A DNA stretch of 64,000 nt from assembly GCA_027422505.1 (NCBI GenBank), contig JAPQWV010000018.1, positions 18,184,001 to 18,248,000 of the forward strand, given 5' to 3'. Shown here one piece after another: positions 13,363 through 61,035 of this stretch (the stretch's first letter is position 1; each line of letters opens with the position of its first letter). This DNA comes from Craterostigma plantagineum (lineage: Eukaryota; Streptophyta; Magnoliopsida; Lamiales; Linderniaceae). The notes below the pieces were generated by a model, which saw only the letters and a program-made list of their open reading frames with translations, searched no databases and was not told the origin of the DNA. The position numbers were made by a program, and so were the translations under genes.

Positions 13363-13394
13363 TTGGTTTGTCGGTATTCTTTGATAAGTGCAGG

Positions 13395-35514: not shown

Positions 35515-36242
35515 AATTGAAAGTTCGTATGATGTTCGATCCCTTAATAAAATGGAAATATATGTTCTGTAGACATATTCTTCTCACGTGCAACGCATTG
35601 TGTCACCTACTAGTATATATAAACTGCATACACGAGAAAGATGATCGAAGCGCTTCATACGAGACATCAAGACATTATAAATAAAATTATTAATTGCAAA
35701 ACCATTGCGTGCAATTTCATTCATAGGATTGCTGATTAACTCATGAAATTAAACAGCGGGACAGATAAGTTTATCGTATAGATGCATTACATTGTAAATA
35801 AATAAAATCACGGAGATCTATTGAAACTTTAAAGCAGTAAATATATAGTTTAGTAGAATAAAATGAGTTGTGTCCCGCTATACGATAAACTTATCTGTCC
35901 CGCTGTTTAATTTCATTCATACGATAGTTTAGTAGAATAAATCTCCGTGATTTTATTTATTTACAATGTAATGCATCTATACGATAAACTTATCTGTCCG
36001 CTGTTTAATTTCATGAGTTAATCAGCAATCCTATGAATGAAATTGCACGCAATGGTTTTGCAATTAATAATTTTATTTATAATGTCTTGATGTCTCGTAT
36101 GAAGCGCTTCGATCATCTTTCTCGTGTATGCAGTTTATATATACTAGTAGGTGACACAATGCGTTGCACGTGAGAAGAATATGTCTACAGAACATATATT
36201 TCCATTTTATTAAAGGATCGAACATCATACGAACTTTCAATT
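35515..36242. repeat. Near-perfect inverted repeat, ~300-bp arms
   Basis: Left arm 35515-35817, right arm 35941-36242, differing by only a few bases. The 123-bp loop contains at 35823-35872 the same 50 bp that opens every unit of the downstream array (GAAACTTTAAAGCAGTAAAT to AATGAGTTGTG), followed by a short extra copy of arm sequence (CTTATCTGTCCCGCTG). Confidence 0.9.
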
Positions 36243-36425
36243 AAATGACCTTGTAATAAAATGAAATATAAATCATACGTAGTTCGATTTATGTTACTTG
36301 ATAGATTATAACATGTTTCCTAACCTTGTAATAAAATGAAATATAAATCAAATAATATGTCGGGGACTATAAATAATAATTAACCAATAATTTTCATCAT
36401 ATATTGGTGACCTAGATGCTATTCT
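36243..36425. other. AT-rich spacer with a short direct repeat
   Basis: CCTTGTAATAAAATGAAATA occurs at about 36249 and 36323. No gene. Confidence 0.6.
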
Positions 36426-36450
36426 CACTAGTACATAAAAGCACATAATT
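36426..36450 (+). other. CACTA-type transposon terminus
   Basis: CACTAGTACATAAAAGCAC has the form of a CACTA (En/Spm) terminal inverted repeat, which in plants often reads CACTAGTACAAAAA. It lies exactly at the edge of the array. The partner end would be beyond the Athila insertion and is not seen. Confidence 0.55.
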
Positions 36451-38636
36451 TCGAAACTTTAAAGCAGTAAATATATAGTTTAGTAGAATAAAATGAGTTG
36501 TGAGGGTCTTACCGTGTTCTCCTTGAGAGAAATCGCCTTAGATGGAGAGAGGTGCCGGCGGCGACTTCATATGAGCTGCTCGTGAGGGGGCAGGGTTAAC
36601 AAAAGCTATAGGCGACGGTTGTTAGGAAAAACACGTAACGGTCGCCCAAACTTGGGTCGCCTATGTGATTAACCTTGGGCGACTCATGTCTGGTAACATG
36701 CGTCACGCATAACGAAATAAAAAAAATTATAGTGCATGGGCGACTCATGTTTCGTATACATGAGTCGCCTATAATGATAACCTTGGACGACTCATTTCCG
36801 GTAACATGAGTCGCCCATACCCAAATAAAAAAAATTAGTTGTCGTTCGTGAGCGACTCATGTTTTGTCAACATGAGTCGCCTATGTGATAAAAACCTTCG
36901 GCGACTCATGTTACCAAATATGAGTCGCCCATACCCAAATAAAAAAAAAATTGAAATGTGCATGCACGCTAGTTATGGGCGACTCATGTTTCGTAAACAT
37001 GAGTCGCCTATGTTTTCACACTTGGGTGACTCATTTCTGGTAACATGAGTCGCCCACACCGAAATATAAAAAATTTAGTTGTCGTTCATGAGCGACTCAT
37101 GTTTTGTCAACATGAGTCGCCTATGTGATAAAAACCTTCGGCGACTCATGTTACTAAACATGAGTCGCCCATACCCAAATAAAAAAAAATTTAGTTTTCG
37201 TTCATGGGCGACTCATGTGTAGTTAACATGAGTCGCCCATACCAAATAAAAAAAAAATGAAATGTGCATGCACGCTAGTTATGGGCGACTCATGTTTCGT
37301 AAACATGAGTCGCCTATGTTTTCACTCTTGGGCGACTCATTTCCGGTAACATGAGTCGCCCATATCGAAATATAAAAAATTTAAAATTCGTTTATGGGCG
37401 ACTCATGTTACCGGAATGAGCGGCGCCTATGAACAGCGACACTTAAAAATTACCATAATGCCACCGCGTCTATTGCCGTCGACTGTTGCTTATTTTTATC
37501 ATAGGCGACTGTTGCTTCCCTAGAAACAGTCGCCTATGTTTTAATTTGTTTTCATTTACTTCATAGGCGACTGTTTCTAGGTTAGAAACAGTCGCCAATG
37601 CTAGAAACAGTCGCCAATGATAGCAACGTTGGTCATGGGCGACTGTTCTTTGGAAGAAACAGTCGCCTATGCGCGTAAAATTTCTTATTTTTATCATAGG
37701 CGACTGTTGCTTCCCTTGAAACAGTCGCCTATGATAGAAATTTTTTTTATTTAAATTCTGTCATAGGCGACTGTTGCTTAGAAAGAAACAGTCGCCTATG
37801 AAGGTCATTTTTTTAATTTCTTTTTGTTTTTTTATATTTCCAACCATCAAATCCAAAACAAATAAAGTCAAACATGACCATCACGGTAGCTTATAAATAG
37901 TCCAACCAACTTACAGCGATTGAACTAATACACCGACACTTTTAAGTACTCTCTTTAATTTCCATCACGGGAGACGAAGCAAAGTTTTTGCTTTCATTGC
38001 ATGACTATTCAAGAAACCAAAACTTTCGTCACTTCTTTCATATTAATCAATGTCCATATCAACCTCAAATCAAATATAACACAAACATGAGCTCAAATCG
38101 TAGAAGCTAAGCCTCGAAAATGCATAAAATACCTCCAACTTCGAAAATTCTCAATATAAGCCCAAAAACCAAAATTTCGCCACTTTTTTCCGCATTAATC
38201 AATGTCCATATCAACCTCAAATCGAATATAACACAAACATGAGCCTCAAATCGTAGAAACTAAGCCACGAAATCGCAAAATACCTCCAACTTCGAAAAAT
38301 TCGAACTCAATATAAGCCCAAAAACCGAAATTTCGCCACTTTTTTCCGCATTAATCAATGTCCATATCAACCTCAAATCGAATATAACACAAACATGAGC
38401 CTCAAATCGTAGAAACTAAGCCACGAAATCGCAAAATACCTCCAACTTCGAAAAATTCGAACTCAATATAAGCCCAAAAACCGAAATTTTCGCCACTTTT
38501 TACGCATTAATCAAGCTCCATATCAACCTCAAATCGAATATGACACAAGACTAAACCTAAAGTAACCTCAAATCGCTGAAATTAAGCCCCAAAATCGCCT
38601 AAAAAGCTAAAATAATATTTCCAAGTTTTCAAAATT
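36451..38636 (+). repeat. Array unit 1 (2186 bp)
   Basis: Starts directly after the CACTA-type end. TATA box 37892-37899; 156-bp monomers start at about 38043, 38195, 38351 and 38507. Its type 2 zone is the fullest, including a doubled AGAAACAGTCGCCAATG segment. It lacks the block holding GGGCGACGCG just before the CCATAGGCGACGG motif found in the other units. Confidence 0.9.
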
Positions 38637-41147
38637 TCGAAACTTTAAAGCAGTAAATATATAGTTTAGTAGAATAAAATGAGTTGTGAGGGTCTTACAG
38701 TGTTCTCCTTGAGAGAAATCGCCTTAGATGGAGAGAGGTGCCGGCGGCGACTTCATATGAGTTGCTCGTGAGGGGGCAGGGTTAACAAAAGCTATAGGCG
38801 ACGGTTGTTAGGAAAAACACGTAACGGTCGCCCAAACTTGGGTCGCCTCTGTGATTAACCTTGGGCGACTCATGTCCCGTAACATGCGTCGCGCATAACG
38901 AAATAAAAAAAGTTATAGTGCATGGGCGACTCATGTTTCGTATACATGAGTCGCCTATAATGATAACCTTGGGCGACTCATTTCCGGTAACATGAGTCGC
39001 CCATACCCAAATAAAAAAAATTAGTTGTCGTTCGTGAGCGACTCATGTTTTGTCAACATGACTCGCCTATGTGATGAAAACCTTCGGCGACTCATGTTAC
39101 CAAACATGAGTCACCCATAACCAAATAAAAAAAAAATTAGTTTTCGTTCATGGGAAACTCATGTGTAGTTAACATGAGTCGCCCATACCCAAATAAAAAA
39201 AAAATTGAAATGTGCATGCACGCTAGTTATGGGCGACTCATGTTTCGTAAACATGAGTCGCCTTTGTTTTCACACTTGGGCGACTCATTTCCGGTAACAT
39301 GAGTCGCCCATACCGAAATATAAAAAATTTAGTTGTCGTTCACGAGCGACTCATGTTTTGTCAACATGAGTCGCCCATACCCAAATAAAAAAAATTAGTT
39401 TTCGTTCATGGGCGACTCATGTGTAGTTAACATGAGTCGCTCATACCCAAATAAAAAAAATGAAATGTGCATGCACGCTAGTTATGGGCGACTCATGTTT
39501 CGTAAACATGAGTCGCCTATGTTTTCACTATTGGGCGACTCATTTCGGTAACATGAGTCGCCCATACCGAAATATAAAAAATTTAAAATTCGTTTATGGG
39601 CGACTCATGTAAAGTTATCATGTGTCGCCTATACCGAAAAATATAAAACGTGGAAAAGCTTGGGCGAAGCATGTTTCGTAAACATAAGTCGCCTATGTGA
39701 TATAAACATTGGGCGACTCATGTTTCGTAAAATTAGTCGCCCATAAACAAATAAAAAAATATTTAAATTTGTGCATGATAAGAAAAGAAATGTTTTTTAA
39801 ACAAGTAAAATAGTTGGGCGACGCGTTTTTTGTTACTAAATGTCGCCGAAGAGTTACTAAAGCCATAGGCGACGGTTTCTCCACAACGAGCGGCGCCTAT
39901 GAACAGCGACAATTAAAGAAAATTACCATAATGCCACCGCGTCTATTGCCGTCGACTGTTGCTTATTTTTATCATAGGCGACTGTTGCTTCCCTAGAAAC
40001 AGTCGCCTATGTTTTAATTTGTTTTCATTTACTTCATAGGCGACTGTTGGTCATGGGCGACTGTTCTTTGGAAGAAACAGTCGCCTATGATAGAAATTTT
40101 TTTTATTTAAATTCTGTCATAGGCGACTGTTGCTTAGAAAGAAACAGTCGCCTATGAAGGTAATTTTTTTAATTTCTTTTTGTTTTTTTTATACTCCTAA
40201 CCATCCAATCCAAAACAAATAAAGTCAAACATGACCATCACGGTAGCTTATAAATAGTCGAACCAACTTACAGCGACTGAACTAATACACCGACACTTTT
40301 AAGTACTCTCTTTAATTTCCATCACGGTAGACGAAGCAAAGTTTTTGCCTTCATTGCATGACCATTCAAGAAACCAAAACTTTCGTCACTTCTTTCGTAT
40401 TAATCAATGTCCATATTAACCTCAAATTAAATATAACACAAACATGAGCTCAAATCGTAGAAGCTAAGCCTCGAAAATGCATAAAATACCTCCAACTTCG
40501 AAAATTCTCAATATAAGCCCAAAAACCAAATTTCGCCACTTTTTTCCGCATTAATCAATGTCCATATCAACCTCAAATCGAATATAACACAAACATGAGC
40601 CTCAAATCGTAGAAACTAAGCCACAAAATCGCAAAATACCTCCAACTTCGAAAAATTCGAACTCAATACAAGCCCAAAAATCGAAATTTCGCCACTTTTT
40701 TCCGCATTAATCAATGTCCATATCAAGCTCAAATCGAATATAACACAAACATGAGCCTCAAATCGTAGAAACTAAGCCACGAAATCGCAAAATACCTCCA
40801 ACTTCGAAAAATTCGAACTCAATATAAGCCCAAAAACCGAAATTTCGCCACTTTTTCCGCATTAATCAATGTCCATATCAACCTCAAATCGAATATAACA
40901 CAAACATGAGCCTCAAATCGTAGAAACTAAGCCACGAAATCGCAAAATACCTCCAACTTCGAAAAATTCGAACTCAATATAAGCCCAAAGACCGAAATTT
41001 TCGCCACTTTTTTCGCATTAATCAAGCTCCATATCAACCTCAAATCGAATATGACACAAGACTAAACCTAAAGTAACCTCAAATCGCTGAAATTAAGCCC
41101 CAAAATCGCCTAAAAAGCTAAAATAATATTTCCAAGTTTTCAAAATT
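38637..41147 (+). repeat. Array unit 2 (2511 bp), type A
   Basis: Longest unit, with five 156-bp monomers (about 40400, 40551, 40707, 40862, 41018). TATA box 40249-40256. One more monomer than unit 3 explains the 155-bp length difference. Confidence 0.9.
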
Positions 41148-43503
41148 TCGAAACTTTAAAGCAGTAAATATATAGTTTAGTAGAATAAAATGAGTTGTGA
41201 GGGTCTTACCGTGTTCTCCTTGAGAGAAATCGCCTTAGATGGAGAGAGGTGCCGGCGGCGACTTCATATGAGTTGCTCGTGAGGGGGCAGGGTTAACAAA
41301 AGCTATAGGCGACGGTTGTTAGGAAAAACACGTAACGGTCGCCCAAACTTGGGTCGCCTCTGTGATTAACCTTGGACGACTCATGTCCCGTAACATGCGT
41401 CGCGCATAACGAAATAAAAAAAGTTATAGTGCATGGGCGACTCATGTTTCGTATACATGAGTCGCCTATAATGATAACCTTGGGCGACTCATTTCCGCTA
41501 ACATGAGTCGCCCATACCCAAATAAAAAAATTAGTTGTCGTTCGTGAGCGACTCATGTTTTGTCAACATGACTCGCCTATGTGATAAAAACCTTCGGCGA
41601 CTCATGTTACCAAACATGAGTCACCCATAACCAAATAAAAAAAAAATTAGTTTTCGTTCATGGGAAACTCATGTGTAGTTAACATGAGTCGCCCATACCC
41701 AAATAAAAAAAAATTGAAATGTGCATGCACGCTAGTTATGGGCGACTCATGTTTCGTAAACATGAGTCGCCTTTGTTTTCACACTTGGGCGACTCATTTC
41801 CGGTAACATGAGTCGCCCATACCGAAATATAAAAAATTTAGTTGTCGTTCACGAGCGACTCATGTTTTGTCAACATGAGTCGCCCATACCCAAATAAAAA
41901 AAAATTAGTTTTCGTTCATGGGCGACTCATGTGTAGTTAACATGAGTCGCTCATACCCAAATAAAAAAAAATGAAATGTGCATGCACGCTAGTTATGGGC
42001 GACTCATGTTTCGTAAACTTGAGTCGCCTATGTTTTCACTATTGGGCGACTCATTTCGGTAACATGAGTCGCCCATACCGAAATATAAAAAATTTAAAAT
42101 TCGTTTATGGGCGACTCATGTAAAGTTATCATGTGTCGCCTATACCGAAAAATATTAAACGTGGAAAAGCTTGGGCGAAGCATGTTTCGTAAACATAAGT
42201 CGCCTATGTGATATAAACATTGGGCGACTCATGTTTCGTAAAATTAGTCGCCCATAAACAAATAAAAAAATATTTAAATTTGTGCATGATAAGAAAAGAA
42301 ATGTTTTTTAAACAAGTAAAATAGTTGGGCGACGCGTTTTTGTTACTAAATGTCGCCGAAGAGTTACTAAAGCCATAGGCGACGGTTTCTCCACAACGAG
42401 CGGCGCCTATGAACAGCGACAATTAAAAAAAATTACCATAATGCCACCGCGTCTATTGCCGTCGACTGTTGCTTATTTTTATCATAGGCGACTGTTGCTT
42501 CCCTAGAAACAGTCGCCTATGTTTTAATTTGTTTTCATTTACTTCATAGGCGACTGTTGGTCATGGGCGACTGTTCTTTGGAAGAAACAGTCGCCTATGA
42601 TAGAAATTTTTTTTATTTAAATTCTGTCATAGGCGACTGTTGCTTAGAAAGAAACAGTCGCCTATGAAGGTAATTTTTTTAATTTCTTTTTGTTTTTTTA
42701 TACTCCTAACCATCCAATCCAAAACAAATAAAGTCAAACATGACCATCACGGTAGCTTATAAATAGTCGAACCAACTTACAGCGATTGAACTAATACACC
42801 GACACTTTTAAGTACTCTCTTTAATTTCCATCACGGTAGACGAAGCAAAGTTTTTGCCTTCATTGCATGACCATTCAAGAAACCAAAACTTTCGTCACTT
42901 CTTTCGTATTAATCAATGTCCATATTAACCTCAAATTAAATATAACACAAACATGAGCTCAAATCGTAGAAGCTAAGCCTCGAAAATGCATAAAATACCT
43001 CCAACTTCGAAAATTCTCAATATAAGCCCAAAAACCAAAATTTCGCCACTTTTTTCCGCATTAATCAATGTCCATATCAACCTCAAATCGAATATAACAC
43101 AAACATGAGCCTCAAATCGTAGAAACTAAGCCACAAAATCGCAAAATACCTCCAACTTCGAAAAATTCGAACTCAATATAAGCCCAAAAACCGAAATTTC
43201 GCCACTTTTTTCCGCATTAATCAATGTCCATATCAACCTCAAATCGAATATAACACAAACATGAGCCTCAAATCGTAGAAACTAAGCCACGAAATCGCAA
43301 AATACCTCCAACTTCGAAAAATTCGAACTCAATATAAGCCCAAAAACCGAAATTTTCGCCACTTTTTTCGCATTAATCAAGCTCCATATCAACCTCAAAT
43401 CGAATATAACACAAGCCTAAACCTAAACGTAACCTCAAATCGCTGAAATTAAGCCCCAAAATCGCCTAAAAAGCTAAAATAATATTTCCAAGTTTTCAAA
43501 ATT
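41148..43503 (+). repeat. Array unit 3 (2356 bp), type A
   Basis: Very close to unit 2, minus one 156-bp monomer. TATA box 42758-42765. Confidence 0.9.
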
Positions 43504-45451
43504 TCGAAACTTTAAAGCAGTAAATATATAGTTTAGTAGAATAAAATGAGTTGTGAGTGTCTTACCGTGCTCTCCTTGAGAGAAATCGCCTTAGATGGAG
43601 AAAGGTGCCGGCGGCGACTTCGTATGAGTTGCTCGTGAGGGGGCAGGGTTAACAAAAGCTACAGGCGACGGTTGTTAGGAAAAACACGTAACAGTCGCCC
43701 AAACTTGGGTTGCCTATGTGATTAACCTTGGGCGACTCATGTCCCGTAACATGCGTCGCGCATAACGAAATAAAAAAAATTATAGTGCATGGGCGACTCA
43801 TGTTTCGTATACATGAGTCGCCTATAATGATAACCTTGGGCGACTCATTTCCGGTAACATGAGTCGCCCATACCCAAATAAAAAAAAGTAGTTGTCGTTC
43901 GTGAGCGACTCATGTTTTGTCAACGTGAGTCGCCTATGTGATAAAAACCTTCGGCGACTCATGTTACCAAACATGAGTCGCCCATACCCAAATAGAAAAA
44001 AGAATTAGTTTTCGTTCATGGGCGACTCATGTGTAGTTAACATGAGTCGCCCATACCAAAATAAAAAAAAAATGAAATGTGCATGCACGCTAGTTATGGG
44101 CGACTCATGTTTTGTAAACATGAGTCGCCTATGTTTTCACTCTTGGGCGACTCATTTCCGGTAACATGAGTTGCCCATACCGAAATATAAAAAATTTAAA
44201 ATTCGTTTATGGGCGACTCATGTAAAGTTATCATGTGTCGCCTATACCGAAAAATATAAAACGTGGAAAAGCTTGGGCGAAGCATGTTTCGTAAACATAA
44301 GTCGCCTATGTGATATAAACATTGGGCTACTCATGTTTCGTAAAATGAGTCGCCCATAAACAAATAAAAAAAATATTTAAATTTGTGCATGATAAGAAAA
44401 GAAATGTTTTTTAAACAAGTAAAATAGTTGGGCGACGCGTTTTTTGTTACTAAATGTCGCCGAAGAGTTACTAAAGCCATATGCGACGGTTTCTCCACAA
44501 CGAGCGGCGCCTATGAACAGCGACACTTAAAAAAATTACCATAATGCCACCGCGTCTATTGCCGTCGACTGTTGCTTATTTTTATCATAGGCGACTGTTG
44601 CTTCCCTAGAAACAGTCGCCTATGTTTTAATTTGTTTTCATTTACATCATAGGCGAACCATCCAATCCAAAACAAATAAAGTCAAACATGACCATCACGG
44701 TAGCTTATAAATAGTCCAACCAACTTACAGCGATTGAACTAATACACCGACACTTTTAAGTACTCTCTTTAATTTCCATCACGGTGGACGAAGCAAAGTT
44801 TTTGCCTTCATTGCATGACCATTCAAGTAACCAAAAATTTCGTCACTTCTTTCGTATTAATCAATGTCCATATCAACCTCAAATCAAATATAACACAAAC
44901 ATGAGCTCAAATCGTAGAAACTAAGCCTCGAAAATGCATAAAATACCTCCAACTTCGAAAATTCTCAATATAAGCCCAAAAACCAAAATTTCGCCACTTT
45001 TTTCCGCATTAATCAATGTCCATATCAACCTCAAATCGAATATAACACAAACATGAGCCTCAAATCGTAGAAACTAAGCCACAAAATCGCAAAATACCTC
45101 CAACTTCGAAAAATTCGAACTCAATATAAGCCCAAAAACCGAAATTTCGCCACTTTTTTCCGCATTAATCAATGTCCATATCAACCTCAAATCGAATATA
45201 ACACAAACATGAGCCTCAAATCGTAGAAACTAAGCCACGAAATCGCAAAATACCTCCAACTTCGAAAAATTCGAACTCAATATAAGCCCAAAAACCTAAA
45301 TTTTCGCCACTTTTTTCGCATTAATCAAGCTCCATATCAACCTCAAATCGAATATAACACAAGCCTAAACCTAAACGTAACCTCAAATCGCTGAAATTAA
45401 GCCCCAAAATCGCCTAAAAAGCTAAAATAATATTTCCAAGTTTTCAAAATT
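43504..45451 (+). repeat. Array unit 4 (1948 bp), type B with deletion
   Basis: Type B signature GAGTGTCTTACCGTGCTCTC. About 200 bp of the type 2 palindrome zone are deleted (CATAGGCGAACCATCC junction near 44655). TATA box 44706-44713. Confidence 0.9.
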
Positions 45452-47604
45452 TCGAAACTTTAAAGCAGTAAATATATAGTTTAGTAGAATAAAATGAGTT
45501 GTGAGTGTCTTACCGTGCTCTCCTTGAGAGAAATCGCCTTAGATGGAGAGAGGTGCCGGCGGCGACTTCATATGAGTTGCTCGTGAGGGGGCAGGGTTAA
45601 CAAAAGCTACAGGCGACGGTTGTTAGGAAAAACACGTAACAGTCGCCCAAACTTGGGTCGCCTATGTGATTAACCTTGGGCGACTCATGTCCCGTAACAT
45701 GCGTCGCGCATAACGAAATAAAAAAAATTATAGTGCATGGGCGACTCATGTTTCGTATACATGAGTCGCCTATAATGATAACCTTGGGCGACTCATTTCC
45801 GGTAACATGAGTCGCCCATACCCAAATAAAAAAGTAGTTGTCGTTCGTGAGCGACTCATGTTTTGTCAACGTGAGTCGCCTATGTGATAAAAACCTTCGG
45901 CGACTCATGTTACCAAACATGAGTCGCCCATACCCAAATAAAAAAAAGAATTAGTTTTCGTTCATGGGCGACTCATGTGTAGTTAACATGAGTCGCCCAT
46001 ACCAAAATAAAAAAAAATGAAATGTGCATGCACGCTAGTTATGGGCGACTCATGTTTTGTAAACATGAGTCGCCTATGTTTTCACTCTTGGGCGACTCAT
46101 TTCCGGTAACATGAGTTGCCCATACCGAAATATAAAAAATTTAAAATTCGTTTATGGGCGACTCATGTAAAGTTATCATGTGTCGCCTATACCGAAAAAT
46201 ATAAAACGTGGAAAAGCTTGGGCGAAGCATGTTTCGTAAACATAAGTCGCCTATGTGATATAAACATTGGGCTACTCATGTTTCGTAAAATGAGTCGCCC
46301 ATAAACAAATAAAAAAAATATTTAAATTTGTGCATGATAAGAAAAGAAATGTTTTTTAAACAAGTAAAATAGTTGGGCGACGCGTTTTTGTTACTAAATG
46401 TCGCCGAAGAGTTACTAAAGCCATATGCGACGGTTTCTCCACAACGAGCGGCGCCTATGAACAGCGACACTTAAAAAAATTACCATAATGCCACCGCGTC
46501 TATTGCCGTCGACTGTTGCTTATTTTATCATAGGCGACAGTTGCTTCCCTAGAAACAGTCGCCTATGTTTTAATTTGTTTTCATTTACATCATAGGCGAC
46601 TGTTTCTAGGTTAAAAACAGTCGCCAATGATAGCAACGTTGGTCATGGGCGACCGTTCTTTGGAAGAAACAGTCGCCTTTGCGCGTAAAATTTCTTATTT
46701 TATCATAGGCGACTGTTGCTTCCCTAGAAACAGTCGCCTATGATAGAAAGAAACAGTCGCCTATGAAGGTAATTTTTTTAATTTCTTTTTGCTTTTTTTT
46801 TATATTCCCAACCATCAAATCCAAAACAGATAAAGTCAAACATGACCATCACGGTCTTATAAATAGTCCAACCAACTTACAGCGATTGAACTAATACACC
46901 GACACTTTTAAGTACTCTCTTTAATTTCCATCACGGTGGACGAAGCAAAGTTTTTGCCTTCATTGCATGACCATTCAAGAAACCAAAAAATTTCGTCACT
47001 TCTTTCGTATTAATCAATGTCCATATCAACCTCAAATCAAATATAACACAAACATGAGCTCAAATCGTAGAAACTAAGCCTCGAAAATGCATAAAATACC
47101 TCCAACTTCGAAAATTCTCAATATAAGCCCAAAAACCAAAATTTCGCCACTTTTTTCCGCATTAATCAATGTCCATATCAACCTCAAATCGAATATAACA
47201 CAAACATGAGCCTCAAATCGTAGAAACTAAGCCACGAAATCGCAAAATACCTCCAACTTCGAAAAATTCGAACTCAATATAAGCCCAAAAACCGAAATTT
47301 CGCCACTTTTTTCCGCATTAATCAATGTCCATATCAACCTCAAATCGAATATAACACAAACATGAGCCTCAAATCGTAGAAACTAAGCCACGAAATCGCA
47401 AAATACCTCCAACTTCGAAAAATTCGAACTCAATATAAGCCCAAAAACCGAAATTTTCGCCACTTTTTTCGCATTAATCAAGCTCCATATCAACCTCAAA
47501 TCGAATATAACACAAGCCTAAACCTAAACGTAACCTCAAATCCCTGAAATTACGCCCCAAAATCGCCTAAAAAGCTACAATAATATTTCCAAGTTTTCAA
47601 ACTT
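45452..47604 (+). repeat. Array unit 5 (2153 bp), type B
   Basis: Type B signature with ACAGGCGACGG and the CATATGCGACGG variant. TATA box 46858-46865. Confidence 0.9.
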
Positions 47605-49952
47605 TCGAAACTTTAAAGCAGTAAATATATAGTTTAGTAGAATAAAATGAGTTGTGAGGGTCTTACCGTGTTCTCCTTGAGAGAAATCGCGTTAGATGAA
47701 GAGAGGTGCCGGCGGCGACTTCATATGAGTTGCTCGTGAGGGGGCAGGGTTAACAAAAGCTATAGGCGACGGTTGTTAGGAAAAACACGTAACGGTCGCC
47801 CAAACTTGGTCGCCTATGTGATTAACCTTGGGCGACTCATGTCCCGTAACATGCGTCGCGCATAACGAAATAAAAAAATTATAGTGCATGGGCGACTCAT
47901 GTTTCGTATACATGAGTCGCCTATAATGATAACCTTGGGCGACTCATTTTCGGTAACATGAGTCGCCCATACCCAAATAAAAAAAATTAGTTGTCGTTCG
48001 TGAGCGACTCATGTTTTGTCAACGTGAGTCGCCTATGTGATAAAAACCTTCGGCGACTCATGTTACCAAACATGAGTCGCCCATACCCAAATAAAAAAAA
48101 ATTAGTTTTCGTTCATGGGCGACTCATGTGTAGTTAACATGAGTCGCCCATACCCAAATAAAAAAAAAATTGAAATGTGCATGCACGCTAGTTATGGGCG
48201 ACTCATGTTTCGTAAACATGAGTCGCCTTTACACTTGGGCGACTCATTTCCGGTAACATGAGTCGCCCATACCGAAATATAAAAAATTTAGTTGTCGTTC
48301 ACGAGCGACTCATGTTTTGTCAATATGAGTCGCCCATACCCAAATAAAAAAAAATTAGTTTTCGTTCATGGGCGACTCATGTGTAGTTAACATGAGTCGC
48401 CCATACCCAAATAAAAAAAAATGAAATGTGCATGCACGCTAGTTATGGGCGACTCATGTTTCGTAAACATGAGTCGCCTATGTTTTCACTATTGGGCGAC
48501 TCATTTCCGGTAACATGAGTTGCCCATACCGAAATATAAAAAATTTAAAATTCGTTTATGGGCGACTCATGTAAAGTTATCATGTGTCGCCTATACCGAA
48601 AAATATAAAACGTGGAAAAGCTTGGGCGAAGCATGTTTCGTAAACATAAGTCGCCTATGTGATATAAACATTGGGCGACTCATGTTTCGTAAAATTAGTC
48701 GCCCATAAACAAATAAAAAAATATTTAAATTTGTGCATGATAAGAAAAGAAATGTTTTTTAAACAAGTAAAATAGTTGGGCGACGCGTTTTTTGTTACTA
48801 AATGTCGCCGAAGAGTTACTAAAGCCATAGGCGACGGTTTCTCCACAACGAGCGGCGCCTATGAACAGCGACACTTAAAAAAATTACCATAATGCCACCG
48901 CGTCTATTGTCGTCGACTGTTGCTTATTTTCATCATAGGCGACTGTTGCTTCCCTAGAAACAGTCGCCTATGTTTTAATTTGTTTTCATTTACTTCATAG
49001 GCGACTGTTGGTCATGGGCGACTGTTCTTTGGAAGAAACAGTCGCCTATGATAGAAATTTTTTTTATTTAAATTCTGTCATAGGCGACTGTTGCTTAGAA
49101 AGAAACAGTCGCCTATGAAGGTAATTTTTTTAATTTCTTTTTTTTTTTATACTCCTAACCATCCAATCCAAAACAAATAAAGTCAAACATGACCATCACG
49201 GTAGCTTATAAATAGTCGAACCAACTTACAGCGATTGAACTAATACACCGACACTTTTAAGTACTCTCTTTAATTTCCATCACGGTAGACGAAGCAAAGT
49301 TTTTGCCTTCATTGCATGACCATTCAAGAAACCAAAACTTTCGTCACTTCTTTCGTATTAATCAATGTCCATATTAACCTCAAATTAAATATAACACAAA
49401 CATGAGCTCAAATCGTAGAAGCTAAGCCTCGAAAATGCATAAAATACCTCCAACTTCGAAAATTCTCAATATAAGCCCAAAAACCAAAATTTCGCCACTT
49501 TTTTCCGCATTAATCAATGTCCATATCAACCTCAAATCGAATATAACACAAACATGAGCCTCAAATCGTAGAAACTAAGCCACAAAATCGCAAAATACCT
49601 CCAACTTCGAAAAATTCGAACTCAATATAAGCCCAAAAACCGAAAAATCGCCACTTTTTTCCGCATTAATCAATGTCCATATCAACCTCAAATCGAATAT
49701 AACACAAACATGAGCCTCAAATCGTAGAAACTAAGCCACGAAATCGCAAAATACCTCCAACTTCGAAAAATTCGAACTCAATATAAGCCCAAAAACCTAA
49801 ATTTTCGCCACTTTTTTCGCATTAATCAAGCTCCATATCAACCTCAAATCGAATATAACACAAGCCTAAACCTAAACGTAACCTCAAATCGCTGAAATTA
49901 AGCCCCAAAATCGCCTAAAAAGCTAAAATAATATTTCCAAGTTTTCAAAATT
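47605..49952 (+). repeat. Array unit 6 (2348 bp), type A'
   Basis: Type A' signature: CAAACTTTCGAAAC at the start and ATCGCGTTAGATG. TATA box 49207-49214. Confidence 0.9.
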
Positions 49953-52109
49953 TCGAAACTTTAAAGCAGTAAATATATAGTTTAGTAGAATAAAATGAGT
50001 TGTGAGTGTCTTACCGTGCTCTCCTTGAGAGAAATCGCCTTAGATGGAGAGAGGTGCCGGCGGCGACTTCATATGAGTTGCTCGTGAGGGGGCAGGGTTA
50101 ACAAAAGCTACAGGCGACGGTTGTTAGGAAAAACACGTAACAGTCGCCCAAACTTGGGTCGCCTATGTGATTAACCTTGGGCGACTCATGTCCCGTAACA
50201 TGCGTCGCGCATAACGAAATAAAAAAAATTATAGTGCATGGGCGACTCATGTTTCGTATACATGAGTCGCCTATAATGATAACCTTGGGCGACTCATTTC
50301 CGGTAACATGAGTCGCCCATACCCAAATAAAAAAAAGTAGTTGTCGTTCGTGAGCGACTCATGTTTTGTCAACGTGAGTCGCCTATGTGATAAAAACCTT
50401 CGGCGACTCATGTTACCAAACATGAGTCGCCCATACCCAAATAAAAAAAAGAATTAGTTTTCGTTCATGGGCGACTCATGTGTAGTTAACATGAGTCGCC
50501 CATACCAAAATAAAAAAAAAATGAAATGTGCATGCACGCTAGTTATGGGCGACTCATGTTTTGTAAACATGAGTCGCCTATGTTTTCACTCTTGGGCGAC
50601 TCATTTCCGGTAACATGAGTTGCCCATACCGAAATATAAAAAATTTAAAATTCGTTTATGGGCGACTCATGTAAAGTTATCATGTGTCGCCTATACCGAA
50701 AAATATAAAACGTGGAAAAGCTTGGGCGAAGCATGTTTCGTAAACATAAGTCGCCTATGTGATATAAACATTGGGCTACTCATGTTTCGTAAAATGAGTC
50801 GCCCATAAACAAATAAAAAAAATATTTAAATTTGTGCATGATAAGAAAAGAAATGTTTTTTAAACAAGTAAAATAGTTGGGCGATGCGTTTTTTGTTACT
50901 AAATGTCGCCGAAGAGTTACTAAAGCCATATGCGACGGTTCTCCACAACGAGCGGCGCCTATGAACAGCGACACTTAAAAAAATTACCATAATGCCACCG
51001 CGTCTATTGCCGTCGACTGTTGCTTATTTTTATCATAGGCGACTGTTGCTTCCCTAGAAACAGTCGCCTATGTTTTAATTTGTTTTCATTTACATCATAG
51101 GCGACTGTTTCTAGGTTAGAAACAGTCGCCAATGATAGCAACGTTGGTCATGGGCGACCGTTCTTTGGAAGAAACAGTCGCCTTTGCGCGTAAAATTTCT
51201 TATTTTATCATAGGCGACTGTTGCTTCCCTAGAAACAGTCGCCTATGATAGAAAGAAACAGTCGCCTATGAAGGTAATTTTTTTAATTTCTTTTTGCTTT
51301 TTTTTTTATATTCCCAACCATCAAATCCAAAACAAATAAAGTCAAACATGACCATCACGGTCTTATAAATAGTCCAACCAACTTACAGCGATTGAACTAA
51401 TACACCGACACTTTTAAGTACTCTCTTTAATTTCCATCACGGTGGACGAAGCAAAGTTTTTGCCTTCATTGCATGACCATTCAAGAAACCAAAAATTTCG
51501 TCACTTCTTTCGTATTAATCAATGTCCATATCAACCTCAAATCAAATATAACACAAACATGAGCTCAAATCGTAGAAACTAAGCCTCGAAAATGCATAAA
51601 ATACCTCCAACTTCGAAAATTCTCAATATAAGCCCAAAAACCAAAATTTCGCCACTTTTTTCCGCATTAATCAATGTCCATATCAACCTCAAACCGAATA
51701 TAACACAAACATGAGCCTCAAATCGTAGAAACTAAGCCACGAAATCGCAAAAGACCTCCAACTTCGAAAAATTCGAACTCAATATAAGCCCAAAAACCGA
51801 AATTTCGCCACTTTTTTCCGCATTAATCAATGTCCATATCAACCTCAAATCGAATATAACATAAACATGAGCCTCAAATCGTAGAAACTAAGCCACGAAA
51901 TCACAAACTACTTCCAACTTCGAAAAATTCGAACTCAATATAAGCCCAAAAACCGAAATTTTCGCCACTTTTTTCGCATTAATCAAGCTCCATATCAACC
52001 TCAAATCGAATATAACACAAGCCTAAACCTAAACGTAACCTCAAATTGCTGAAATTACGCCCCAAAATCGCCTAAAAAGCTAAAATAATATTTCCAAGTT
52101 TTCAAACTT
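49953..52109 (+). repeat. Array unit 7 (2157 bp), type B
   Basis: Nearly the same as unit 5. TATA box 51364-51371. Confidence 0.9.
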
Positions 52110-54091
52110 TCGAAACTTTAAAGCAGTAAATATATAGTTTAGTAGAATAAAATGAGTTGTGAGGGTCTTACCGTGTTCTCCTTGAGAGAAATCGCGTTAG
52201 ATGGAGAGAGGTGCCGGCGGCGACTTCATATGAGTTGCTCGTGAGGGGGCAGGGTTAACAAAAGCTATAGGCGATGGTTGTTAGGAAAAACACGTAACGG
52301 TCGCCCAAACTTTGGTCGCCTATGTGATTAACCTTGGGCGACTCATGTCCCGTAACATGCGTCGCGCATAACGAAATAAAAAAATTATAGTGCATGGGCG
52401 ACTCATGTTTCGTATACATGAGTCGCCTATAATGATAACCTTGGGCGACTCATTTTCGGTAACATGAGTCGCCCATACCCAAATAAAAAAAATTAGTTGT
52501 CGTTCATGGGCGACTCATGTGTAGTTAACATGAGTCGCTCATACCCAAATAAAAAAAAATGAAATGTGCATGCACGCTAGTTATGGACGACTCATGTTTC
52601 GTAAACATGAGTCGCCTATGTTTTCACTATTGGGCGACTCATTTCGGTAACATGAGTCGCCCATACCGAAATATAAAAAATTTAAAATTCGTTTATGGGC
52701 GACTCATGTAAAGTTATCATGTGTCGCCTATACCGAAAAATATAAAACGTGGAAAAGCTTGGGCGAAGCATGTTTCGTAAACATAAGTCGCCTATGTGAT
52801 ATAAACATTGGGCGACTCATGTTTCGTAAAATTAGTCGCCCATAAACAAATAAAAAAATATTTAAATTTGTGCATGATAAGAAAAGAAATGTTTTTTAAA
52901 CAAGTAAAATAGTTGGGCGACGCGTTTTTTGTTACTAAATGTCGCCGAAGAGTTACTAAAGCCATAGGCGACGGTTTCTCCACAACGAGCGGCGCCTATG
53001 AACAGCGACACTTAAAAAAATTACCATAATGCCACCGCGTCTATTGTCGTCGACTGTTGCTTATTTTCATCATAGGCGACTGTTGCTTCCCTAGAAACAG
53101 TCGCCTATGTTTTAATTTGTTTTCATTTACTTCATAGGCGACTGTTGGTCATGGGCGACTGTTCTTTGGAAGAAACAGTCGCCTATGATAGAAATTTTTT
53201 TTATTTAAATTCTGTCATAGGCGACTGTTGCTTAGAAAGAAACAGTCCCCTATGAAGGTAATTTTTTTAATTTCTTTTTGTTTTTTTTATACTCCTAACC
53301 ATCCAATCCAAAACAAATAAAGTCAAACATGACCATCACGGTAGCTTATAAATAGTCGAACCAACTTACAGCGATTGAACTAATACACCGACACTTTTAA
53401 GTACTCTCTTTAATTTCCATCACGGTAGACGAGCAAAGTTTTTGCCTTCATTGCATGACCATTCAAGAAACCAAAACTTTCGTCACTTCTTTCGTATTAA
53501 TCAATGTCCATATTAACCTCAAATTAAATATAACACAAACATGAGCTCAAATCGTAGAAGCTAAGCCTCGAAAATGCATAAAATACCTCCAACTTCGAAA
53601 ATTCTCAATATAAGCCCAAAAACCAAAATTTCGCCACTTTTTTCCGCATTAATCAATGTCCATATCAACCTCAAATCGAATATAACACAAACATGAGCCT
53701 CAAATCGTAGAAACTAAGCCACAAAATCGCAAAATACCTCCAACTTCGAAAAATTCGAACTCAATATAAGCCCAAAAACCGAAATTTCGCCACTTTTTTC
53801 CGCATTAATCAATGTCCATATCAACCTCAAATCGAATATAACACAAACATGAGCCTCAAATCGTAGAAACTAAGCCACGAAATCGCAAAATACCTCCAAC
53901 TTCGAAAAATTCGAACTCAATATAAGCCCAAAAACCTAAATTTTCGCCACTTTTTTCGCATTAATCAAGCTCCATATCAACCTCAAATCGAATATAACAC
54001 AAGCCTAAACCTAAACGTAACCTCAAATCGCTGAAATTAAGCCCCAAAATCGCCTAAAAAGCTAAAATAATATTTCCAAGTTTTCAAAATT
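52110..54091 (+). repeat. Array unit 8 (1982 bp), type A' with deletion
   Basis: Type A' with about 365 bp lost at the GTTGTCGTTC motif near 52500, where two identical short motifs of the unit are joined. TATA box 53347-53354. Confidence 0.9.
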
Positions 54092-56244
54092 TCAAAACTT
54101 TAAAGCAGTAAATATATAGTTTAGTAGAATAAAATGAGTTGTGAGTGTCTTACCGTGCTCTCCTTGAGAGAAATCGCCTTAGATGGAGAGAGGTGTCGGC
54201 GGCGACTTCATATGAGTTGCTCGTGAGGGGGCAGGGTTAACAAAAGCTACAGGCGACGGTTGTTAGGAAAAACACGTAACAGTCGCCCAAACTTGGGTCG
54301 CCTATGTGATTAACCTTGGGCGACTCATGTCCCGTAACATGCGTCGCGCATAACGAAATAAAAAAAATTATAGTGCATGGGCGACTCATGTTTCGTATAC
54401 ATGAGTCGCCTATAATGATAACCTTGGGCGACTCATTTCCGGTAACATGAGTCGCCCATACCCAAATAAAAAAAAGTAGTTGTCGTTCGTGAGCGACTCA
54501 TGTTTTGTCAACGTGAGTCGCCTATGTGATAAAAACCTTCGGCGACTCATGTTACCAAACATGAGTCGCCCATACCCAAATAGAAAAAAGAATTAGTTTT
54601 CGTTCATGGGCGACTCATGTGTAGTTAACATGAGTCGCCCATACCAAAATAAAAAAAATGAAATGTGCATGCACGCTAGTTATGGGCGACTCATGTTTTG
54701 TAAACATGAGTCGCCTATGTTTTCACTCTTGGGCGACTCATTTCCGGTAACATGAGTTGCCCATACCGAAATATAAAAATTTAAAATTCGTTTATGGGCG
54801 ACTCATGTAAAGTTATCATGTGTCGCCTATACCGAAAAATATAAAACGTGGAAAAGCTTGGGCGAAGCATGTTTCGTAAACATAAGTCGCCTATGTGATA
54901 TAAACATTGGGCTACTCATGTTTCGTAAAATGAGTCGCCCATAAACAAATAAAAAAAATATTTAAATTTGTGCATGATAAGAAAAGAAATGTTTTTTAAA
55001 CAAGTAAAATAGTTGGGCGACGCGTTTTTTGTTACTAAATGTCGCCGAAGAGTTACTAAAGCCATATGCGACGGTTTCTCCACAACGAGCGGCGCCTATG
55101 AACAGCGACACTTAAAAAAATTACCATAATGCCACCGCGTCTATTGCCGTCGACTGTTGCTTATATTTATCATAGGCGACTGTTGCTTCCCTAGAAACAG
55201 TCGCCTATGTTTTAATTTGTTTTCATTTACATCATAGGCGACTGTTTCTAGGTTAGAAACAGTCGCCAATGATAGCAACGTGGTCATGGGCGACCGTTCT
55301 TTGGAAGAAACAGTCGCCTTTGCGCGTAAAATTTCTTATTTTATCATAGGCGACTGTTGCTTCCCTAGAAACAGTCGCCTATGATAGAAAGAAACAGTCG
55401 CCTATGAAGGTAATTTTTTAATTTCTTTTGCTTTTTTTTTTTATATTCCCAACCATCAAATCCAAAACAAATAAAGTCAAACATGACCATCACGGTCTTA
55501 TAAATAGTCCAACCAACTTACAGCGATTGAACTAATACACCGACACTTTTAAGTACTCTCTTTAATTTCCATCACGGTGGACGAAGCAAAGTTTTTGCCT
55601 TCATTGCATGACCATTCAAGAAACCAAAAATTTCGTCACTTCTTTCGTATTAATCAATGTCCATATCAACCTCAAATCAAATATAACACTAACATGAGCT
55701 CAAATCGTAGAAACTAAGCCTCGAAAATGCATAAAATACCTCCAACTTCGAAAATTCTCAATATAAGCCCAAAAACCAAAATTTCGCCACTTTTTTCCGC
55801 ATTAATCAATGTCCATATCAACCTCAAATCGAATATAACACAAACATGAGCCTCAAATCGTAGAAACTAAGCCACGAAATCGCAAAATACCTCCAACTTC
55901 GAAAAATTCGAACTCAATATAAGCCCAAAAAAACCGAAATTTCGCCACTTTTTTCCGCATTAATCAATGTCCATATCAACCTCAAATCGAATATAACATA
56001 AACATGAGCCTCAAATCGTAGAAACTAAGCGACGAAATCGCAAAATACCTCCAACTTCGAAAATTCGAACTCAATATAAGCCCAAAAACCGAAATTTTCG
56101 CCACTTTTTCGCATTAATCAAGCTCCATATCAACCTCAAATCGAATATAACACAAGCCTAAACCTAAACGTAACCTCAAATCGCTGAAATTACGCCCCAA
56201 AATCGCCTAAAAAGCTAAAATAATATTTCCAAGTTTTCAAACTT
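54092..56244 (+). repeat. Array unit 9 (2153 bp), type B
   Basis: Same length as unit 5. TATA box 55499-55506. Confidence 0.9.
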
Positions 56245-58526
56245 TCGAAACTTTAAAGCAGTAAATATATAGTTTAGTAGAATAAAATGAGTTGTGAGGG
56301 TCTTACCGTGTTCTCCTTGAGAGAAATCGCGTTAGATGGAGAGAGGTGCCGGCGGCGACTTCATATGAGTTGCTCGTGAGGGGGCAGGGTTAACAAAAGC
56401 TATAGGCGACGGTTGTTAGGAAAAACACGTAACGGTCGCCCAAACTTTGGTCGCCTATGTGATTAACCTTGGGCGACTCATGTCCCGTAACATGCGTCGC
56501 GCATAACGAAATAAAAAAATTATAGTGCATGGGCGACTCATGTTTCATATACATGAGTCGCCTATAATGAAAACCTTGGGCGACTCATTTTCGGTAACAT
56601 GAGTCGCCCATACCCAAATAAAAAAAATTAGTTGTCGTTCGTGAGCGACTCATGTTTGTCAACGTGAGTCGCCTATGTGATAAAAACCTTCGGCGACTCA
56701 TGTTACCAAACATGAGTCGCCCATACCCAAATAAAAAAAAAATTAGTTTTCGTTCATGGGAAACTCATGTGTAGTTAACATGAGTCGCCCATACCCAAAT
56801 AAAAAAAAAAAAAAAATTGAAATGTGCATGCACGCTAGTTATGGGCGACTCATGTTTCGTAAACATGAGTCGCCTTTGTTTTCACACTTGGGCGACTCAT
56901 TTCCGGTAACATGAGTCGCCCATACCGAATATAAAAAATTTAGTTGTCGTTCACGAGCGACTCATGTTTTGTCAACATGAGTCGCCCATACCCAAATAAA
57001 AAAAAAATTAGTTTTCGTTCATGGGCGACTCATGTGTAGTTAACATGAGTCGCCCATACCCAAATAAAAAAAAATGAAATGTGCATGCACGCTAGTTATG
57101 GGCGACTCATGTTTCGTAAACATGAGTCGCCTATGTTTTCACTATTGGGCGACTCATTTCGGTAACATGAGTCGCCCATACCGAAATATAAAAAATTTAA
57201 AATTCGTTTATGGGCGACTCATGTAAAGTTATCATGTGTCGCCTATACCGAAAAATATAAAACGTGGAAAAGCTTGGGCGAAGCATGTTTCGTAAACATA
57301 AGTCGCCTATGTGATATAAACATTGGGCGACTCATGTTTCGTAAAATTAGTCGCCCATAAACAAATAAAAAAAATATTTAAATTTGTGCATGATAAGAAA
57401 AGAAATGTTTTTTAAACAAGTAAAATAGTTGGGCGACGCGTTTTTTGTTACTAAATGTCGCCGAAGAGTTACTAAAGCCATATGCGACGGTTTCTCCACA
57501 ACGAGCGGCGCCTATGAACAGCGACACTTAAAAAAATTACCATAATGCCACCGCGTCTATTGCCGTCGACTGTTGCTTATTTTTATCATAGGCGACTGTT
57601 GCTTCCCTAGAAACAGTCGCCTATGTTTTAATTTGTTTTCATTTACATCATAGGCGACTGTTTCTAGGTTAGAAACAGTCGCCAATGATAGCAACGTTGG
57701 TCATGGGCGACCGTTCTTTGGAAGAAACAGTCGCCTTTGCGCGTAAAATTTCTTATTTTATCATAGGCGACTGTTGCTTCCCTAGAAACAGTCGCCTATG
57801 ATAGAAAGAAACAGTCGCCTATGAAGGTAATTTTTTTAATTTCTTTTTGCTTTTTTTTTTATATTCCCAACCATCAAATCCAAAACAAATAAAGTCAAAC
57901 ATGACCATCACGGTCTTATAAATAGTCCAACCAACTAACAGCGATTGAACTAATACACCGACACTTTTAAGTACTCTCTTTAATTTCCATCACGGTGGAC
58001 GAAGCAAAGTTTTTGCCTTCATTGCATGACCATTCAAGAAACCAAAATTTCGTCACTTCTTTCGTATTAATCAATGTCCATATCAACCTCAAATCAAATA
58101 TAACACAAACATGAGCTCAAATCGTAGAAACTAAGCCTCGAAAATGCATAAAATACCTCCAACTTCGAAAATTCTCAATATAAGCCCAAAAAACCAAAAT
58201 TTCGCCACTTTTTTCCGCATTAATCAATGTCCATATCAACCTCAAATCGAATATAACACAAACATGAGCCTCAAATCGTAGAAACTAAGCCACGAAATCG
58301 CAAAATACCTCCAACTTCGAAAAATTCGAACTCAATATAAGCCCAAAAACCGAAATTTCGCCACTTTTTTCCGCATTAATCAATGTCCATATCAACCTCA
58401 AATCGAATATAACACAAACATGAGCCTCAAATCGTAGAAACTAAGCCACGAAATCGCAAAATACCTCCAACTTCGAAAAATTCGAATTCAATATAAGCAC
58501 AAAAACCGAAATTTTCGCCACTTTTT
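56245..58526 (+). repeat. Array unit 10, A'/B chimera
   Basis: Opens as type A' (GCGTTAGATGG) but from about 57480 carries type B variants (CATATGCGACGG, GGGCGACCGTTC). TATA box 57917-57924. It breaks off inside a 156-bp monomer at 58526. Confidence 0.85.
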
Positions 58527-58856
58527 TCAACGTGAGTCGCCCATACCCAAATAAAAAAAAAATTGAAATGTGCATGCACGCTAGTTATGGGCGACTCATG
58601 TTTCGTAAACATGAGTCGCCTTTGTTTTCACACTTGGGCGACTCATTTCCGGTAACATGAGTCGCCCATACCGAAATATAAAAAATTTAGTTGTCGTTCA
58701 CGAGCGACTCATGTTTTGTCAACATGAGTCGCCCATACCCAAATAAAAAAAAATTAGTTTTCGTTCATGGGCGACTCATGTGTAGTTAACATGAATCGCC
58801 CATACCCAAATAAAAAAAAATGAAATGTGCATGCACGCTAGTTATGGGCGACTCAT
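58527..58856 (+). repeat. Partial array unit at the right edge
   Basis: Internal type 1 palindrome zone joined directly to the cut monomer of unit 10 (CACTTTTTTC|AACGTGAGTCGCCC), then interrupted by the Athila LTR after GGGCGACTCAT. Confidence 0.85.
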
Positions 58857-60599
58857 TGATAAACGTATTTTCTTACGTTTATAGGTATTATAATTGGAAG
58901 TATTTGCAAGTTAAAAAGGAGTCTTCGTGTCAAATTTGGTAATTAATTATGAGTTTACATCATTTCGGACAGTTTTGCGGCAGTTTAGCATGTCTCGTAA
59001 AATAAGGGGTAGTTGACCGATAGATCTGAAAATTGGAGGGGAGCTAGAATATTTAACGATCTTAATTCTCACAAAAGGGATTTGCATTTGAATGTCTACA
59101 TCGTGAGATATTAATTTTTGAACTTAATGCAAATTTTTTAGTGAATCAAAGTCAAGCTTTGTTTGCATGATTTCCAAGTTTTTCGACAGTTTTGCATTCT
59201 TAACAGATGAGGGGGTAAAAGTTGTCCAATGAAGCTGAAATTTTAACCAAAGATAGAAGACTTGTTAATCTTGATTCTTACTGGAGGGATTTGGATTTGG
59301 AGCTCTAGATTGAGAGATATTAATTTCGGAAGTTACTGCCGTGTTAGAGGTGGTGTTGGAGGTCAAAACACACTAAAAATGACTCCTACCTAACTTGTCT
59401 CTTCTTGGTCGAAAGTTCAACCATTATTCAAGGAAAGAGGCATGCTTTAGACCTAACTTTCGACATTGAAACACCCCATTCCATTTGAACTCAATAAAGG
59501 AGGCTAAAGTTGAAGGAATTGGGGGACAAAGTTAGCTTTCTTCAATGTGAACAAGTTAAAGCAAAGAAGACTTGCATGTACATGAGTATGACCTCCCCTT
59601 GCTATAAATAGAGGAAGGAATCATTGGGAGAGAACACACACATACACTTAGAGAAGAGAAAGAAAGGCTAGAGAGAAAGTTAGCTCATTCACTTAGCTTG
59701 TATGCTAGGTATTCGATAAACGGCTCAACGAAGAACAAGGGTACGAAGCCATAAACAGGGAAGATCTATATTTCTTTGATGTTTATTATGTTCTTAGTTG
59801 AGAAAATGAGTAGCTAATTTCTTGTGTATTTGAGATGAGATGAACCCTGACAAGATCGATCGTATGTTTTAAGTATATTTAATGTTATGCTATTGTTAAG
59901 ACTCTTTTACGAATTTATATGATTTCGATTATGTCTATGTGATTGAAATTCTTATTTACCTTATTCATGTCTATGTGTGTAAGATAGATTAATTGGGAAA
60001 TCGTACGCTGCGCTCGAGAGAGGGGTGAACGATTAGAACACTCGTAAACGAGCGGAATAAACTCGTCACTAGAGATAGGTTGAGCTACTCCGCTGGATTA
60101 GAGTCAAATCTAATAGAGGGATTAATAATGATTTAATGCAATCTTCGATTAAGTAGTTAGGGAAGCTTGCTCGGCTATTTAAGACGTAGATTAGTTGCTT
60201 ACGAGCCTCGTGTGATAAGGCGTAGTTTCGTCAGTCTTATGAACTCATACGCATGTGTTGGTAATCCTCACGGTCTAACGTTTAGCTAAAACTTTGATAT
60301 ATGTTTTCAGCAGATCGATCGAGCTAGGGGGAGTCGAAGTCTCAAATACGTTTCGCTTTCTTATCGTCGTTCATTCTCATCATTTTTATTAGTTTTGTTC
60401 ATTTATATTTCAGTTTTACAACAATCAAAGCATTTTCACTAGGATATTTAAATTCAAGTTTTTCTAATTATTTAGTTCCCTTGGGATTCGATACTCGAAT
60501 ACTCGCCATTTTATACTATTATCGATAGGTACACTTGCCTGTTGAGCGTGGTTAGTTTGTCGATATTCGTTTTATTTTATTACTCGATTCGCTCGATCA
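58857..60599 (+). repeat. 5' LTR of the Athila element (1743 bp)
   Basis: Begins TGATAAACGTATTTTC, ends GCTCGATCA. Its start is fixed by the abrupt end of array sequence. A TATA-like CTATAAATAGAGG lies near 59613. The 3' partner is not in the window. Confidence 0.85.
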
Positions 60600-60604
60600 A
60601 GTTT

Positions 60605-60622
60605 TGGCGCCGTTGCCGGGGA
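60605..60622 (+). other. Primer-binding site, tRNA-Asp type
   Basis: TGGCGCCGTTGCCGGGGA, five bases after the LTR; this is the usual Athila primer site. Confidence 0.92.
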
Positions 60623-60654
60623 ACTATTGATATTTGGAAAACTTCAGTTTATTA

Positions 60655-60831: not shown

Positions 60832-60868
<37 letters not shown>

Positions 60869-61005: not shown

Positions 61006-61035
61006 TTTTTGGTCTAGGTACGTGTACTCTGGCGC

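Follow-up and report, generated by a model that had tools for sequence, protein, structure and literature searches.

What is a tandem array of kilobase-size, palindrome-packed units doing in a plant genome, and from what was it made? The question is raised by a window of 64,000 nucleotides from Craterostigma plantagineum (C18:18,184,001–18,248,000, C18 being contig JAPQWV010000018.1), the whole of which we analysed while searching the 1.71 Gb of one assembly for relatives. On sequence comparison, the unit of this macrosatellite is a shortened CACTA transposable element. The best account of the array, which we consider probable, is microhomology-mediated tandem duplication in a non-autonomous CACTA element (En/Spm-type) followed by unequal exchange, separately at three compared loci.

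The first part of the array occupies 36452–58856 of the window (plus strand; positions without a contig refer to the window). It is composed of units arranged head to tail from ten starts (36452, 38638, 41149, 43505, 45453, 47606, 49954, 52111, 54093 and 56246), with start-to-start spacings of 2186, 2511, 2356, 1948, 2153, 2348, 2157, 1982 and 2153 bp and a mean unit of 2.2 kb; the end of unit 10 is rearranged. Each unit contains one array of 156-bp monomers (ten in the window), and the TATA-like CTTATAAATAGTC is present in 10/10. Counting palindromes with 12-bp arms and at most one mismatch, we identified 128 within 36451–58856 (22.4 kb), against 0–2 in ten first-order shuffles and seven in a flank of equal length. 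No stop-to-stop frame of at least 120 amino acids is listed from 33,722 to 60,476. These observations agree with a preliminary description of the locus, made from its letters alone, which had reported ten head-to-tail units of ~2.2 kb, each with many near-perfect palindromes, a TATA box and a 156-bp block, and no open reading frame. The right end that it placed at 58856 is incorrect; this position is the edge of a Ty3/gypsy long terminal repeat (LTR) retrotransposon lying within the array (58857–64000 and on to C18:18253704, plus strand). The insert has TG...CA ends, 1.75-kb LTRs that are 99.3% identical, gag and protease matches and the target-site duplication (TSD) CTCAT. The array resumes at C18:18,253,705 and stops at ~18,269,461, so that the whole spans C18:18,220,426–18,269,461 and contains 18 unit starts, ten in the window and eight past the retrotransposon. 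With homogenised units of kilobase size placed head to tail, and a family present at several loci, it is a satellite.

CACTA terminal repeats are present at both edges of the array, the right one imperfect. The left edge is a stub of the 3′ (L) terminal inverted repeat (TIR), CACTAGTACATAAAAGC, at 36426–36448 (plus strand), the same TIR as in other elements, and the right edge is the 5′ (R) terminal repeat shortened to CTCTACTAG, the last unit retaining the R TIR. Outside the stub lies a 188-bp host flank (36238–36425, unstranded), an inverted copy of which, 98.4% identical, directly follows the right end of the array. Positions 35514–36243, immediately to the left of these features, form a 730-bp fold-back that is 90.8% self-inverted, near the centre of which a piece of satellite unit of ~50 bp was recognised by eye.

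Single loci sharing the palindrome terminate in an R end, CACTAGTAGAGAATAAGC, and the L end given above. Genome-wide, the R end has 55 matches and the L end 98 (at most three mismatches). Facing R and L ends no more than 80 kb apart were paired by hand, giving 23 pairs: three of 1.0–1.1 kb, two of 2.8–3.0 kb, four of 3.5–3.8 kb, six of 5.5–6.0 kb, five of 13.1–13.7 kb and three of 51–76 kb. The three largest are arrays on contig C47, and the remaining 20 are small copies (1.0–13.7 kb); a candidate pair on C489 was discarded because both of its ends, L and R, point the same way. Where both flanks of small elements were read, a 3-bp TSD is exact in four of six (C1 TTT, C49 GTT, C397 AAC and C16 GAC) and not exact in C5 (AAA/AAG) and C13 (TAT/ATG). 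The C49 and C397 copies have identical 20-base flanks and therefore probably represent one insertion.

All five paired 13-kb elements contain tnp2 (PF02992), as found with 150 of 1525 candidate places scored. In the element on C16, of which 5.8 of 13.4 kb were fetched, the frame starts with Transpos_assoc (PF13963), followed by tnp2, and runs away from the R end, which identifies the R end as the 5′ end of the gene. This element has 11 palindromes in 1.5 kb at its R end and six in 0.8 kb at its L end, and five single elements carry 7–17 of the same design each. Because the 13-kb relatives carry tnp2, the palindromes belong to ordinary CACTA anatomy. Subterminal repeats in both orientations are present in the C18 array, in C16 and in single elements, and C16 and the satellite unit have similar putative exon-1 regions, each with a donor-like site. 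Based on its TIRs, tnp2 relatives and subterminal repeats, the array is assigned to the CACTA (En/Spm) superfamily; the palindromes are the subterminal repeats of the element and, by analogy with other CACTA elements, probably binding sites of a TnpA-type transposase.

Several other readings of the array were set aside. A stand-alone satellite unrelated to elements was rejected, as single elements share its parts. Palindromes peculiar to the satellite were likewise rejected, the same design being found in single elements and in soybean Tgmt* (PMC2613891). A transposase gene within the arrays was also discarded: none of the 150 tnp2 places scored, out of 1525 candidates, lies in the arrays on C18, C29 or C47. 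A tnp2 domain does occur ~9 kb from the C29 array (C29:2943629–2944264), with a related 156-bp block nearby (2945724–2946185), and a single family copy holds an Ulp1 protease-like remnant (L021:6238–6396; PF02902, 23 bits).

The anatomy of the unit is illustrated by unit 2, which is typical. A putative exon 1 region with a splice-donor-like site of the CACTA gene (38691–38790, minus strand, antisense to the array) has a counterpart in the 13.4-kb tnp2 element, with a likeness of ~90% judged by eye; its limits and splicing are predictions. The 5′ (R) subterminal region (38800–39900, plus strand, as are all the following parts) holds 11 of the unit's 14 palindromes, of the GGCGACTCATG type, and the same region is found in the single elements L021, L022 and C16. 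A junction of R and L sequence at 39934–39967 is followed by three 3′ (L) subterminal palindromes of the GGCGACTGTT type (39975–40154), which resemble those of L024 and L021, by the TATA-like site (40247–40259) and by 4.5 copies of the 156-bp repeat (40371–41059). Related repeats occur in the C16 element, with the exon-1 region on one side and the tnp2 frame on the other, and may represent intron 1. When mapped on the 3,545-bp single element L021, the C18 unit corresponds to 1674–3478 plus a stretch from the 271–630 region, head to tail. It thus combines 5′ subterminal palindromes, putative exon-1 region, 156-bp repeats and 3′ subterminal palindromes, and contains neither coding sequence nor TIR tips.

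The preliminary description had proposed that a CACTA subterminal region was amplified into the satellite. The CACTA origin stands, given the TIRs, the exact TSDs of some small elements and the single-copy and transposase-bearing relatives, but the unit exceeds a subterminal region, since both subterminal regions, the putative exon 1 and the 156-bp repeats are joined in it. An intact element with the same repeats in the same number, which that description counted against its own reading, is matched in kind by single elements as far as the palindromes and 156-bp repeats are concerned, but the tandem 2.2-kb units are not in them.

The TATA-like site was considered as a CACTA promoter and rejected, because its neighbour in longer relatives is the leader of a captured LOG-like gene fragment, and it appears to run antisense to the transposase gene; its sequence context suggests that it derives from the promoter of the captured gene. 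A 5.8-kb non-autonomous copy (L039:3054–4084; C397:194062–199851) contains pieces of a LOG-like gene (cytokinin riboside phosphoribohydrolase, TIGR00730/PF03641) and on this basis looks like a Pack-CACTA element. Fragments of the LOG leader are multiplied within the C29 and C47 arrays. A search for the donor of this leader, with 40 of 343 candidates scored, did not find it: each of the 41 matches listed falls on a contig already known to carry a copy or array of the family.

Arrays of the family on C18, C29 and C47 span 46–76 kb, have CACTA ends at their edges and consist of units of 1.4–2.9 kb. The C29 array (C29:2,952,914–2,998,881) has R ends at both edges in opposite orientation, its last unit is inverted, and it contains palindrome sub-units of 284–286 bp. 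On C47 there are three arrays (C47:853985–905271, 1668255–1719496 and 2671777–2747701), measuring 51.3, 51.2 and 75.9 kb by end matches. Two pairs of their flanks were compared, with identities of 95.8% over 1.8 kb and 96.8% over 3.8 kb. We therefore rejected three separate insertions; the three arrays are probably one insertion that was copied. They have the appearance of segmental copies of one giant CACTA element, with 712-bp tandem units in the second and third, and an element's L end and R TIR are still present at their edges, each changed at its outermost base. A further CACTA-like terminus, CACTACAAAAAAAG, seems to be nested in the left part of one C47 copy (L026, ~2760). R ends also occur in series on C1126, C1179 and C1792, in steps of 3.76 kb, 9.6–9.7 kb and larger, and the 10 kb of C1126 that were read contain inverted R|R joins, three of them 3.76 kb apart. 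These contigs look like yet another array type of the family, one that has diverged more.

The three compared loci differ in the joins between their units. In the C18 array, an R tip that has lost its last 11 bp is joined to the L subterminal region with CTTATT (6 bp) shared between them; by eye, an inner 36-bp hairpin is also missing. In the C47 arrays an R tip short of 14 bp meets the LOG leader, sharing TGCTT (5 bp), and in C29 an R palindrome meets the LOG leader, sharing AAACA (5 bp, or 6 bp by another count). At least 5 bp are shared in 0.9% of random joins within the element. The joins are private: strict matches number 16 for C18, 25 for C29 and 14 for C47, none of them in the fetched array of another. 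All 18 genome matches to the C18 join (at most three mismatches) lie in the C18 array, which accordingly grew in situ. LOG leaders left unjoined were identified in C29 (one) and in the fetched parts of C47 (two), remnants such as in situ duplication would leave.

In a tree built from one 310-base segment and the 70 copies that cover at least 85% of it, in which support values were not used, all 17 C18 units form one branch and all 22 C47 units another, with 27 of the 28 C29 units at the base of the C47 branch. The C18 units differ by no more than 6.4%, and two unit types alternate in the first part of the array: units A04, A05, A07 and A09 are mutually 99.0–99.4% identical and 97.0–98.4% identical to A03, A06 and A08. 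In part B, the pairs B01/B03 and B02/B04 are 99.9% identical and neighbouring units 99.6–99.7%. The closer match of alternate units, together with the alternation of types, suggests growth in two-unit steps.

We infer that a break repaired by end-joining founded each array and that unequal exchange amplified it. A break would have occurred in the 5′ (R) terminal region of a deleted CACTA copy; the broken end would then have been joined, through 5–6 bp of microhomology, to an upstream site in the same or a sister copy, yielding a head-to-tail duplication that unequal exchange could multiply, recently perhaps in two-unit blocks. Reviews have suggested that transposons can become satellites through sister-chromatid joining begun at microhomology (PMC12628747, PMC9659126). 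The array itself is most likely a by-product without a selected role.

Several observations weigh against this account. Matching 3-bp TSDs were found at none of the arrays: the C18 flanks are inverted, C29 is bordered by AGG/CGT beside two R ends, and C47 by AAC/TTT. For this reason in situ growth within one normal insertion is unproved, and an extra rearrangement is needed. Nor is any of the C18, C29 and C47 arrays enclosed as a whole by two intact TIRs and a matching TSD, as a mobile macrotransposon would be. An exact-match search for the empty C47 site gave zero matches. Within the captured leader, the C29 and C47 joins lie no more than ~10 bases apart, and in the tree the C47 units are nested inside the C29 set, so these two loci may not be fully independent. 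The apparent two-unit blocks in part B depend on few differing bases, copy number comes from one assembly, and the C47 arrays were read in part.

The inverted flanks of C18 would be better explained by alternative transposition, in which transposase acting on reversed or sister-chromatid ends, with re-replication, joins the ends of different copies and leaves composite insertions edged by CACTA ends. In maize, such events at Ac/Ds yield tandem duplications and composite insertions (PMC4270019). The two R ends in opposite orientation at the edges of C29, the failure of all three arrays to show a matching TSD and the inverted R|R joins of C1126 are in keeping with this origin. However, the founding junctions are not precise TIR joins and have 5–6 bp of microhomology, which resembles repair more than joining by transposase, and the published cases that we identified concern Ac/Ds and, as a proposal, VANDAL21 (PMC12312487), not CACTA. 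We regard alternative transposition as a possible, though on balance unlikely, origin of the arrays.

The arrays might have been retained by selection as platforms for transposase binding. They would then titrate the CACTA binding protein, as in the sink that the preliminary description suggested, or counteract silencing in the way of the VANC targets of VANDAL elements. These targets are arranged as tandem repeats, and the activation of Spm by TnpA correlates with demethylation (PMC10398659). Amplification of palindrome-rich blocks took place at three loci, and of the first 100 of 156 exact palindrome matches, assigned by hand, 93 lie in arrays (C18 10, C29 26, C47 57), which makes a sink possible in number. 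Comparison of 16 C18 units runs the other way: non-CpG change affects 27/2784 arm positions (0.97%) and 107/9968 spacer positions (1.07%), and CpGs change more in the arms (16/766, 2.1%) than in the spacers (6/992, 0.6%). Visible selection on the palindrome arms was therefore rejected, the arms being no more conserved than the spacers. A sink would have no need of the 156-bp repeats or of the exon-1 region that the units also hold, and we consider selection for such a platform improbable.

The other roles that the preliminary description suggested, a source of hairpin small RNAs and structural heterochromatin, appear quite improbable as well; in the first, transcripts of the hairpin-rich array would feed small RNAs silencing the family in trans. 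One strand of 39200–39640 folds as RNA far better than shuffled sequence (z −17.8), and the units have an exon-1 region and a TATA-like site, but the observed/expected CpG ratio of the unit consensus is 1.45 against 1.01 in the flank, which gives no indication of long-standing decay through CpG methylation.

Excised CACTA circles, amplified by rolling circle and reinserted as finished arrays, would account for a C18 unit that links R to L ends. The C29 and C47 junctions link R to the interior and not to L, the R TIR is still present in the last C18 unit, and at the C47 edges both an L end and an R TIR survive, all of which makes this route very unlikely. An assembly artefact, which the flanks common to the three C47 arrays might suggest, is hardly credible, because the divergence of the compared flanks makes these arrays look like true segmental copies, and a single gypsy insertion flanked by its TSD sits among C18 units that diverge by as much as 6.4%.

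Elsewhere in the window, left of the array, retrotransposon coding regions lie at 7767–11351, 13293–17322 and 24921–27865, one of them Ty3/gypsy-like and two Ty1/copia-like.

A transition from transposon to satellite is known in itself, as are CACTA-linked satellites in Chenopodium and palindromic CACTA ends in soybean. The foldback transposon Tetris reportedly supplied the building blocks of a Drosophila virilis satellite (PMC4079207); going by the title of that report, the likeness is a DNA transposon that became a satellite, and the difference lies in the kind of element. Soybean Tgmt* has a 3-bp TSD, exact here in four of six small elements, and shares with the present family CACTA TIRs, tnp2 and asymmetric subterminal repeats with many stem-loops (in Tgmt* 14, of which 12 in one border and two in the other; PMC2613891). 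It has one repeat set per element, whereas the C18 block was multiplied to 18 unit starts with the TIR tips lost between copies. In Chenopodium, Jozin and related satellites form CACTA-linked arrays, one of them inside an element near its 3′ end (PMC7320549, PMC8978399), with units of ~40 bp (a tnp2 fragment) or 171 bp (a captured array); here the units are 1.4–2.9 kb of the element's own ends, with three founding junctions. The Afa and TM-2 repeats of Triticeae are comparable in that these tandem repeats were possibly generated by CACTA deletion derivatives, a likeness that draws on a one-sentence mention (PMC7320549). Composite insertions in maize resemble the arrays in having transposon ends that flank duplicated DNA in a macrotransposon-like outline, but they involve Ac/Ds and duplicate host flanking DNA, and do not form a many-copy satellite (PMC4270019). 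VANC targets of VANDAL elements are likewise tandem motifs for binding an element protein in non-coding transposon DNA, but there the motifs are short and belong to elements with a demonstrated anti-silencing protein (PMC10398659).

We identified no report of kilobase-size satellites made of CACTA ends in the open-licence PMC literature on CACTA, TnpA, transposon-derived tandem arrays and alternative transposition, searched mostly by topic and little by motif. As far as these searches go, what is new is the combination of kilobase-size units from element ends, different microhomology joins and a source family alongside.

What is known of the origin of satellites comes largely by inference from degraded remnants. 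In the present case transposase-bearing elements, deleted copies and three arrays whose founding joins can still be read coexist in one genome, which allows the order of events between transposon and satellite to be worked out and tested. It is conceivable, though improbable, that this CACTA family repeatedly turns its transposase-binding ends into satellites through microhomology-repaired breaks at the 5′ end, and that the arrays, with their hundreds of palindromes, titrate the family or release it from silencing, satellite birth then being part of the contest between transposon and host. If the arrays do bind transposase, they would offer a test of satellites as brakes or shields for a transposon family.

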